Positions 2,843 to 6,239 of a DNA stretch of 52,501 nucleotides are shown here, piece after piece (within the stretch, counting starts at the first letter, position 1; each line of letters starts with the position of its first letter). The notes beneath the pieces were generated by a model that worked only from the letters and a program-made list of their open reading frames with translations, ran no database searches and was not told the origin of the DNA. The stretch spans positions 1 through 52,501 of the forward strand of contig VGAC01000013.1 in assembly GCA_016870865.1 (NCBI GenBank), given 5' to 3'. The stretch comes from Actinomycetota bacterium. Its GTDB lineage: Bacteria; Actinomycetota; Acidimicrobiia; Acidimicrobiales; Ilumatobacteraceae. Position numbers and translations under genes: made by a program.

Positions 2843-3367
2843 TCAGCCGGCCAAGGCGGCGAGGCGGCTGTCGACCTCGGCCGCAGAGGGTGCCCCGACC
2901 ACGACTTCACGGTCCCCCGAAGCGTCTTGGAAGACCCACGCCGGCTGGCCCGGTACCGCGAAAGATGCGAAGACGGAACCGTCGGCGTCGCGGACGTTGG
3001 CGAACGTCAAACCATGGCGCGAAACGAACCCATCGATCTCGTCTGGCGTGCCGTTCCAGCCGATCCCAACGATCGTGACCTTTCCGGCCCATTTTTTGCT
3101 GGCCTCCTCGACCGAGGGGGCTTCACTGTTGCAGGTGCCTCAATACGGGGCCCAGAACCAGAAGGCGACCGGCGAACCGTTGTAACGCGACCCGAAGTCG
3201 CCGGGCACCGATGTCGACGCGGTGGCCGTTGAATCCGGACCCGAATCGGGCGCGGCGCTCGTCGTGACCGCGGAAGCTTCCGGTACTGACTCGGCGTCGC
3301 CCTCGGCACAAGCGGACACCGCGACGAGAAGTGTGGCAACGAAGAGGCGTCGTATCGCGCGCTTCAC
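2843..3367 (-). CDS. Thioredoxin-like lipoprotein (MPT53/DsbF-like), probable selenoprotein with in-frame TGA
   Basis: The frame starts at GTG 3367, overlapping the gatB stop as GTGA, and ends with TGA at 2843-2845: 174 residues if the in-frame TGA at 3140-3142 is decoded. Residues 1-20 are a lipoprotein signal (VSAC, Cys20). Before the TGA comes SPVAFWFWAPY (65-75); directly after it comes GTCNSEAPS. Read through, this is FWAPY-U76-G-T-C79, the thioredoxin active site with Sec in place of the first Cys. The rest also fits a secreted TlpA/MPT53-type thioredoxin: VTIVGIGWNGTPDEID, DADGSVFASFAV, and the cis-Pro loop GQPAWVF. All 95 codons after the TGA stay open. A SECIS-like hairpin follows at 3102-3121. 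The expected role is extracytoplasmic thiol-disulfide exchange, anchored to the membrane. The alternative is a recent Cys-to-stop mutation or a base error (TGC to TGA). It is the last gene of the lgt-gatCAB operon. Confidence 0.8.
3102..3121 (-). promoter_or_regulatory. Candidate bacterial SECIS hairpin
   Basis: On the minus-strand mRNA the stem 5' G-C-C-C-C-C-U-C pairs with 3' G-A-G-G-A-G-G-C, with one C/A mismatch, closing a GGUC tetraloop at 3110-3113. The loop starts 26 nt after the UGA and begins with G. As I recall the bacterial SECIS model, it requires a G in the first two loop positions and a UGA-to-loop distance of roughly 16-37 nt; both are met. The loop shares GGUC with the E. coli fdhF element. 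Confidence 0.65.
3140..3142 (-). other. In-frame TGA, candidate selenocysteine codon (Sec76)
   Basis: TGA stands at the position of the first cysteine of the thioredoxin CxxC motif, giving U-G-T-C, with conserved family sequence on both sides in the same frame. Confidence 0.75.
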
Positions 3368-4818
3368 GAGCCGCGACGTTTCTGAAGGAGTACGGTGACG
3401 ACCTTGCCGTCGGCCTTGCCTTTGCTGGCCTTCATGATCGATCCAACGATAGCACCCGCCGCTTTTTCTTCGCCGGCACAATATTTCGCCCACGCGTCGG
3501 GTTGGGCCGCTATTGCATCCTCGACGAACTGCGCGATTGCAGAGGCGTCGAGTGCTTCGAAACCCCTCGAAGCGGCGATCGTCTGGGGGTCGCCCCCGCC
3601 TCTCGCGAGCATGTCGCCGAGAACGGACTTGGCCTGTGTTGCGGTGAGTTTGCCCTCACGCTCCATCACCGTGAGCGCGGCCAGATCCGCGGCCGGTAGC
3701 CGCGGCGAGTCGCCTTCGTCGGCAAACGACTGCTGCACCCACACGAGTGCCCGCGCCGCTTCGCCGCCGGCATCGACGACGGCCTTCACATAGTTGTCCT
3801 GTCCGCGCTCGACGACGACCGACACGGCTTCGCTCTCAACGTCGGCTCCGCTGAGTGTGGCGAGCGCCGCACGACGATCCGCCGGCAACACCGGCAGTGC
3901 CGCGCGAACTCGTTCGACCCACGCGGCATCAGGTGCGAGCGGCACGAGGTCGGGTTCGAGGAAATAGCGGTAGTCATCGGCATCTTCCTTCGTGCGCAGT
4001 GTGTGCGTGCGCCCGTCCGCGTCGTCCCAGTGGCGCGTCTCCTGGCGGATCGCACCACCCGTTTCCAAGATGTCGACCTGGCGACGCGCCTCGTATTCGA
4101 TCGCGCGACCAAGTGACCGCACCGAGTTCACGTTCTTGATTTCGCAACGCGTGCCGAGAGGATCACCGTAACGACGCACCGACACGTTGGCATCACAACG
4201 CATCGACCCCTCTTCCATCTTCGCATCACTCGCACCGACGGCCACCAGGATCGCACGCAGTTCGTTCACGTACTGACGCGCTTGTTCGGGCGTGCGAATG
4301 TCGGGACGCGAGACAATTTCGACCAACGGCACCCCGGCGCGGTTGAAGTCGATGAGCGAGTACTCGCTTCCGTGGATGCGGCCACTTGCACCGCCGAAGT
4401 GCGTCGACTTGCCCGTGTCCTCTTCGAGGTGCGCGCGCTCGACGTCAATGCGCACGTTGCCGGGGAGCATGAGGTGACCGTCGACGTTCAACGGTTGGTC
4501 GTACTGACTGATCTGGTAGGCCTTGGGTAGGTCGGGATAGAAGTAGTTCTTACGGTGAAACGTGCACGGTTGCACGCGACAGTTCAATGCAAGACCGATA
4601 CGCATCGCCAGTTCGACCGCGTGCTCGTTCAACACGGGCAGCGCGCCCGGCAGGCCCAGCGTCACCGGGTCGATGTTCGTATTGGGTTCGTCACCGAAGC
4701 GGTTCGGTGACGCGCTGAACAACTTGGTCGTCGTTGCAAGTTCAACGTGGACTTCCAATCCGACGACGAGTTCCCAGCCGTCGGGCAGGCCATTGTCGAG
4801 TTTCTCTCCGGCACTCAT
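3364..4818 (-). CDS. gatB: Asp-tRNA(Asn)/Glu-tRNA(Gln) amidotransferase subunit B
   Basis: GatB binds mischarged tRNA and, with GatA and GatC, converts Glu-tRNA(Gln) or Asp-tRNA(Asn) to the amidated form in the cytoplasm. The product has 484 residues, a normal length. It begins [20 protein letters not shown] and shows the GatB core: [39 protein letters not shown], and the GatB/Yqey tail near the C-terminus ([11 protein letters not shown]). The start at 4818 was chosen because its ATG overlaps the gatA stop as ATGA; the longer open frame upstream has no GatB character. It is translationally coupled to gatA before it and to the thioredoxin-like gene after it (GTGA). Confidence 0.96.
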
Positions 4819-6239
4819 ACCGCACGCTCCAGTTCCGCCGCGACGCGGAACATCGTTGCCTCGCCGAGAGTCGGAGCGAGAACCTGCACGCCCACGGGCA
4901 TGTTGTCCTGCCCGATGCCGAATGGAACACTCATCGCCGGGTGACCCGCGAGGTTGGTCGGAATCGTGAAGATGTCGCACAGGTACATGGCCAATGGATC
5001 GTCGGTTTTCGAACCGAAACGGAACGCAACCGACGGTGACGTGGGGGTAAGGATGACATCGGCGGTTGCATAAGCGCGGGCGAAGTCATCTGCGATCAAA
5101 CGCCGCACCTTCAAGGCCTTGCCGTAGTAGGCGTCGTAGTAGCCCGCCGACAATGCGTACGTGCCGAGCATGATGCGGCGCTTGACTTCGTCGCCGAAGC
5201 CCGCTTCGCGAGTGTCGGCGTACATCGTGTTGATGTCACCCGCCGCCACACGCCTGCCGTATCGCACGCCGTCGTAGCGGGCGAGGTTGCTGCTTGCTTC
5301 GGCCGGTGCGATGAGGTAGTAGGCGGTGAGCGCAAACGACAGCGACGGCAACGTGACGTCGATGATCGTCGCGCCTGCTCTTGCGAGTGCTTCAAGAGCA
5401 GCGTCGAGGCGCGCGAGAACATCTGGGTCGGCGCCCTCCGGCAGGTCGGCGACTCGGCCGATGCGCAGACCCTTGACACCGGCACCAAGCGCGCCGACAA
5501 GGTCGGGCGCGGGCTGCGGAATGCTCGTCGAATCCAACGGGTCGTGACCCGCGATCACCTCGGTGAGAATCGCCGCATCTTCGACCGTGTGGGTGAATGG
5601 ACCGATCTGGTCGAGGCTGCTGGCGAATGCCACGAGGCCATACCGACTGACAAGACCGTATGTGGGCTTCACACCAACCAGACCACACAGTGCGGCGGGT
5701 TGACGAATGCTGCCCCCCGTGTCGCTGCCGAGGCTTCCCGCCGCGAAGCCGGCCGCGACCGCTGCAGCGCTGCCACCACTGCTGCCACCGGGAACGCGAG
5801 AGGTGTCGAGGGGGTTGCGCGTCGGGCCGAAGGCCGAGTTCTCGGTGCTCGACCCCATCGCGAACTCGTCGAGGTTCGTCTTGCCAACGAACACCGCACC
5901 CTCAGCCGCGAGTTTCTGCACCGTCGTGGCGTCGTACGGTGGCTTCCACCCTTCGAGGATTCGTGACGAACACGTGGTCTCCACGCCGCGCGTGCACATG
6001 TTGTCCTTGAGTGCGATCGGCACGCCTGCGAGACGCCCCGGATTCTCACCGCGCTTGACGCGCGCATCGACCTCGGTTGCGACGGCCATCGCGCGCTCAC
6101 GCATGACGAGATTGAACGCGTGCACCTCACCCTCACGCGCGTCGATACGCGCGAGATGTGCATCGAGCACGTCGCGCGCGGTCGTGCGACCGGCAGCGAC
6201 GTCGGCTGCGATCGAAGAGACCCCCGGAAACTCAGCCAC
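4815..6239 (-). CDS. gatA: Asp-tRNA(Asn)/Glu-tRNA(Gln) amidotransferase subunit A
   Basis: This is the amidase subunit, which releases ammonia from glutamine for tRNA-dependent amidation. The protein of 474 residues carries the amidase signature: Lys in [14 protein letters not shown], the Gly/Ser loop GGSSGGS, and [13 protein letters not shown], which together form the Ser-cisSer-Lys site. GTG 6239 is taken as start because it overlaps the end of gatC by 8 nt and gives a normal GatA N-terminus ([20 protein letters not shown]). An in-frame ATG at 6299 would add 20 unusual residues. It lies between gatC and gatB in the same operon. Confidence 0.95.

Follow-up and report, generated by a model that had tools for sequence, protein, structure and literature searches.

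A predicted exported thioredoxin-fold selenoprotein with a UxxC active site and a conserved SECIS hairpin in Ilumatobacteraceae

Does a TGA codon at the active site of a thioredoxin-like gene end that gene, or is it read as selenocysteine (Sec)? The question is raised by one frame in the window, by which we mean the whole stretch of 52,501 nucleotides analysed here, from contig VGAC01000013.1 of a member of the Ilumatobacteraceae (class Acidimicrobiia). The original prediction placed a thioredoxin-like lipoprotein at 2843-3367, with TGA exactly on the first redox cysteine, and proposed, among other things, three sequence-based checks: an alignment of homologues at that codon, a search for a bacterial SECIS element and a search of the genome for the Sec genes. 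The frame itself proves exact. It lies on the minus strand, which the prediction left unstated, and has its GTG start at 3367 and its TGA stop at 2845-2843, with the in-frame TGA at 3142-3140 taking the place of residue 76 within WAPY-U-GTC. A mechanical listing of open reading frames under table 11 ends at this in-frame TGA; after it come 98 codons, rather than the 95 first counted, with a thioredoxin fold. The features on which the argument draws are the following.

2843..3367, minus strand: predicted selenoprotein CDS, encoding 174 aa of which residue 76 is Sec; conserved in relatives.
3140..3142, minus strand: TGA, predicted to be read as selenocysteine 76, which opens the UGTC active site.
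3131..3133, minus strand: Cys79, the presumed resolving cysteine of UxxC, invariant in the 19-row and 49-row alignments.
3102..3121, minus strand: SECIS hairpin GCC-c-CCUC-GGUC-GAGG-a-GGC, with its loop GGUC at 3113-3110, 26 nt after the UGA.
3308..3319, minus strand: lipobox V17-S18-A19-C20, read from the sequence itself; the signal peptide is residues 1-19 (3367-3311).
2942..2944, minus strand: Pro142 in a QPA motif, assigned to the cis-Pro loop of the predicted fold; Q141, P142 and A143 are invariant in the 49-row alignment.
3364..4980, minus strand: upstream gatB ORF, whose true start is probably inside the ORF.

The gene product reads, in order, as a lipoprotein signal ending in VSAC, a low-complexity linker, FWFWAPY-U-GTCNSEAPSVEE and a thioredoxin-like domain. 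Both the lipobox signal and the stretch FWFWAPY-TGA-GTCNSEAPS were part of the original prediction and both are present, the lipobox ending at Cys20. Judged by eye, the export signal consists of the VSAC lipobox after a hydrophobic stretch, and a permissive pattern finds a lipobox-like tetrapeptide 5' of the active site in 29 of 30 family loci. The cis geometry of Pro142 would follow from the modelled fold. In one relative outside the 19-row and 49-row alignments (L109, 3279-3332), the gene has the Sec form and the second active-site Cys codon is Phe (UxxF).

The GTG start overlaps the stop of gatB as GTGA. A gatB-like ORF is present in 10 of the 81 loci compared; motif searches, for which many flanks are incomplete, place a dihydrolipoamide dehydrogenase ORF upstream on the opposite strand in 39 of the 81 and a lipB-like ORF upstream in 20, and the neighbourhood in the window is gatCAB instead of either. 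Comparison of these 81 loci gave no functional lead from the gene neighbourhood. Elsewhere in the window, a second putative lipoprotein gene lies 3' of the selenoprotein gene, from 2629 downwards on the minus strand, with a frame that opens MLVGSRWRAGAAVIVLSVFALAAC, and tandem repeats occur near the window start (seven copies of 24 bp at 3-169 and two copies of 60 bp at 773-895).

The TGA codon is constant among close relatives. When 150 genomes of the family were searched at the protein level, 148 gave some match and 96 a close homologue with a TGA-bearing row, where for unfetched loci the TGA is taken from the table with its position unchecked; in the best loci fetched from this search, TGA stands at the same column in 30 out of 30. 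Scanning named genomes yielded 125 relatives, and the best 80 of these (63 + 17) all have TGA at the site, though the two sets may overlap in genomes. Because the scan patterns (WFWAP[GYT] and CNxEA[PA]SVE) disfavour Cys paralogues, which mostly have WAPWC and CR, the 80/80 count speaks for constancy within the clade and is no free sample of Sec versus Cys. Record titles of the named relatives are mostly actinobacteria, Ilumatobacteraceae or Acidimicrobiia, and titles like Bifidobacterium breve look wrong. Cysteine occupies the Sec position in 11 distinct homologous sequences. The alignment of homologues thus bears out the placement of the TGA on the redox cysteine, with the codon kept in relatives and Cys found in related genes.

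The protein stretch after the TGA is under purifying selection, with dN/dS of 0.09-0.15 in six pairs for which dS is near or above 1. In a tree built on 118 columns and 104 chosen rows, the window's clade comprises 84 Sec sequences and 1 Cys sequence (support 96/92); the rooting and long branches of this tree limit claims on the origin of Sec. The alignments also contain some unusual loci. One genome (G016; locus L133, G016:C154:59000-63000) carries Sec and Cys forms of the same protein in tandem, and at two loci (L061 and L030) the C-terminal half of the Sec gene passes, after FPNVRE, into a different lipoprotein-like frame, through deletion, fusion or misassembly.

Recoding of UGA in bacteria is tied to a hairpin close downstream, for which the rule given in PMC13188914 is a loop of 3-9 nt, a stem of at least 4 bp and a G in the first two loop positions, 16-37 nt after the UGA. 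The window hairpin, which starts 18 nt after the UGA and has a 4-bp stem plus 3 bp, conforms to this rule. Its loop GGTC, at +30 to +33, and the paired 4-bp stem are found in 77 of 77 distinct sequences, and the codons that make it up are frozen: the Ser codon is TCG in 77/77 against 28% elsewhere in the genes, and the Val codon is GTC in 77/77 against 33%. Folding energy relative to synonymous shuffles is lowest at the TGA, with a mean Z of -1.07 (42-nt windows, 80 genes), compared with -0.67 and -0.66 in two overlapping windows and -0.48 to 0.23 in the others.

Among 76 aligned sequences, 94.7% of the hairpin cells are paired, pair 27-36 is U-A instead of C-G in 3, and pair 24-39 is altered on both sides in 19. 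The covariation score and the number of cells with double changes exceed 500 of 500 shuffles, while doubly changed pairs and pair types, two of the five covariation measures, are unexceptional (matched by 63 and 32 of 500 shuffles), and all such comparisons are to be read in the light of the fact that shuffling of related sequences overstates covariation. RNAalifold arrives at this apical stem independently, its covariation term being just -0.09.

The hairpin also separates Sec genes from Cys genes. Across all homologues collected, the conserved SECIS core is present in 87 of 94 Sec sequences and in none of 11 Cys sequences; the seven Sec genes without it belong to other families of the class, and the Cys copy of the tandem pair in G016 is without it. 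The generic bacterial SECIS rule, tried as a discriminator, failed, in that all 94 Sec sequences satisfy it but so do 10 of the 11 Cys sequences. When the genome of the window was searched for SECIS elements of the same type, one strong match emerged, which is this gene (6.2e-21), the next being 0.018 (150 of 1915 candidates scored); in the next five of 22 weaker matches, no GGTC hairpin of the form tested is preceded by an in-frame TGA. This search covers the present hairpin type, and selenoproteins with other SECIS forms may exist in the genome. The outcome of the second proposed check is favourable: downstream of the TGA lies a conserved hairpin consistent with the bacterial SECIS model.

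Is the genome equipped to insert Sec? The assembly is a draft of 1.95 Mb in 42 contigs, 96% complete. It contains tRNA-Sec at C16:15818-15909 (64.7 bits against a gathering score of 47), called by ARAGORN as SeC with anticodon tca, and adjoining genes for SelA (401 bits) and SelB (261 bits), all of which the third check had sought; the fourth component, selD, was not found in this 96% complete draft. SelD is above cut-off in 114 of 150 genomes of the family and present in 12 of 12 other genomes of the genus searched. In one relative (G094, locus L182) the gene order is gpsA, one ORF, selD, and contig C34 of the window's own genome (G000:C34:10-1368; L183, L184) matches that stretch up to just past gpsA, where the match ends at base 10; the contig thus stops some 1.2 kb before the place of selD in G094, and the rest of the G094 stretch (3.2 kb, comprising the intervening ORF, selD and what follows selD) has no match in the genome. 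A contig break is the likely explanation for the missing selD, without proving its presence.

Across the 150 family genomes, a close TGA homologue and SelA occur together in 91, the TGA gene alone in 5, SelA alone in 26 and neither in 28 (Fisher p 7e-11, a statistic that ignores shared ancestry), and the five genomes with the TGA gene and no SelA are all drafts. Two further observations concern the Sec genes. Among the matches listed, SelD itself has a TGA in 18 rows from several genera of the family, against 0 of 12 rows of the window's genus; and about 3 kb from selA there is a possible exported thioredoxin-like lipoprotein with a CQTGTC motif (L019:2875-3906, G000:C1).

Taken together, tRNA-Sec, SelA, SelB, the retained TGA and the SECIS hairpin support the selenoprotein claim, Sec being predicted at residue 76, and it is against this evidence that other readings of the codon have to be weighed. 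The TGA might have arisen from a Cys codon by mutation or by a reading error, in a gene that is dead or misassembled, as would suit an in-frame stop that closes the ORF in the mechanical listing and a source genome that is a draft in 42 contigs. Yet such an accident would have to recur at the same codon in 30/30 and 80/80 loci, leave dN/dS at 0.09-0.15 downstream and coincide with frozen synonymous codons that form a hairpin, and we consider a pseudogene or sequencing error extremely improbable. UGA could instead be decoded as an amino acid other than Sec, either by a general change of the code to Trp or by programmed readthrough, and UGA is indeed read as Trp in other bacteria. This is very improbable here: both the selenoprotein gene and gatB end in TGA, as do many relatives, the genome has tRNA-Sec, SelA and SelB, homologues have Cys at the site, and 11 of 11 Cys homologues are missing the SECIS core. 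On the strength of the conserved TGA, low dN/dS, SECIS and Sec machinery, we reject pseudogene, sequencing error and general recoding. We conclude, with a probability of roughly 0.96, that the gene encodes a genuine UxxC selenoprotein with Sec as its nucleophile, an extracytoplasmic thiol-disulfide oxidoreductase that belongs to the MPT53/DsbF/ResA group and is presumably anchored by a lipid.

What kind of oxidoreductase might this be? Three Pfam models (AhpC-TSA, Redoxin and Thioredoxin) are all above their gathering scores, the best match, with UxxC, being AhpC-TSA (PF00578, 31.2 against 26 bits). The protein passes no NCBIfam model cut-off, and its best match there, ResA, is far below cut-off. 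A profile search of solved structures gives MPT53 (1lu4) at 105 bits (1.3e-29) and DsbF (3ios) at 101 bits (2.6e-28), both matches covering the entire domain, the next at 50 bits. The AlphaFold2 model has a mean pLDDT of 84, with domain blocks at 93-98 and low values in the signal and linker, and a fold search with this model again ranks MPT53 and DsbF first, at rmsd 1.3 and 1.1 Angstrom. The kinship with MPT53 and DsbF that was originally claimed is accordingly the top match both by sequence and by fold.

Under the selenoprotein reading, SelB and Sec-tRNA-Sec would recode the UGA, directed by the downstream hairpin, and the protein would be exported and then lipidated, its anchoring in the membrane being expected from the lipobox. 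A disulfide in the substrate (or a peroxide or some other oxidant) would be the target of the selenolate, and Cys79 would resolve the intermediate via a selenenylsulfide. The redox direction of these steps is a separate matter, and we give even odds to a real selenoprotein whose role is peroxidase-like or reductive (ResA/CcmG-like), not oxidative as for MPT53/DsbF, a role compatible with our preferred reading. Sec usually lowers the redox potential, which counts for such a role, as do the best matches to AhpC-TSA in Pfam and, far below cut-off, to ResA in NCBIfam; VKOR, moreover, was not found in the draft genome (96% complete). The closest solved homologues argue the other way, since MPT53 and DsbF oxidise hirudin and did not reduce insulin (as described in PMC3853704), and DsbD_TM (PF02683, the one model searched), the donor of the reductive route, was likewise not found in the draft. 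With neither VKOR nor DsbD_TM found in the genome, the redox partner is missing, and the case raises the question of where an exported selenoprotein gains or loses its electrons when searches for two expected partner families both came back empty.

A more speculative thought, and one that we regard as rather unlikely, is that the Sec machinery in a genome of about 2 Mb is kept mainly for one exported lipoprotein. It is suggested by a clade that is nearly all Sec (84:1), by VKOR and DsbD not being found in the genome, and by SelD of the genus having no in-frame TGA (12/12). According to a 2006 survey, every selenoproteome includes FdhA or SelD as a selenoprotein (PMC1794560); in the present one, that part could fall to an exported thiol protein.

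Beyond the family, the family profile matches some protein in 271 of 296 genomes across the class. TGA is carried by many of the rows listed for several of its families and orders, and loci fetched from outside the family provide 9 distinct sequences with TGA at the active site; Sec-containing redoxins therefore look common in the class. The class-level loci L169-L181 and further listed rows include redoxins with in-frame TGA in other families or orders, some genomes having several such rows (e.g. G402), and two of these loci (L173 and L176) retain the GGTC loop on a different stem.

How new, then, is this selenoprotein? The original prediction called it likely new, which calls for milder wording. 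We found no paper naming the clade in the open-licence literature, but UxxC thioredoxin-fold selenoproteins are already known as a kind, because Table 1 of a 2026 review (PMC13188914) lists UxxC in a Prx-like thiol:disulfide oxidoreductase (PF00578), a redoxin (PF08534) and a thiol-disulfide isomerase-like class (cd02966). The text of that paper has no word beginning actinobacteri, actinomycet or acidimicrobi. Use of Sec in the phylum Actinobacteria was described by 2006 (PMC1794560) and has long been known (PMC1794560, PMC5029168). In PMC5649159, most sponge symbiont bins, drawn from various phyla, are reported to have SelA and SelB; two of the bins are Acidimicrobiia, and Sec machinery may thus already have been noted there for the class. 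The present locus adds a well-supported selenoprotein clade to an actinobacterial class for which we found little selenoprotein literature, and illustrates how a simple ORF call comes to end at the active site. It also offers many natural Sec genes with a near-invariant SECIS, together with Cys genes without the SECIS core, among them a Sec/Cys tandem pair.

Several known systems invite comparison. The NCBIfam families NF041054 (WAxxUGC_long) and NF053656 (TUGYCR) are also thioredoxin-fold selenoproteins, and they match 19 and 12 of 49 clade members at E <=0.01. The window protein differs from both, scoring 12.4 bits against a cut-off of 300 for NF041054, whose motif name gives UGC where the window protein has UxxC, and 11.3 bits against a cut-off of 100 for NF053656. 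The UxxC selenoproteins of PF00578, PF08534 and cd02966 in Table 1 of PMC13188914 share its motif, and PF00578 and PF08534 are above gathering here, a likeness drawn from domain and motif description. As for MPT53 (Mt-DsbE, 1lu4) and DsbF (3ios) of Mycobacterium tuberculosis, PMC3853704 gives DsbD or Rv2877c as their presumed partner, whereas DsbD_TM was not found in the genome of the window. Like the window protein, they have an exported thioredoxin fold and an active site with two-residue spacing; their site is CxxC, in contrast to the UxxC of the window protein, which comes with a SECIS and in which Sec is predicted to replace the first Cys.
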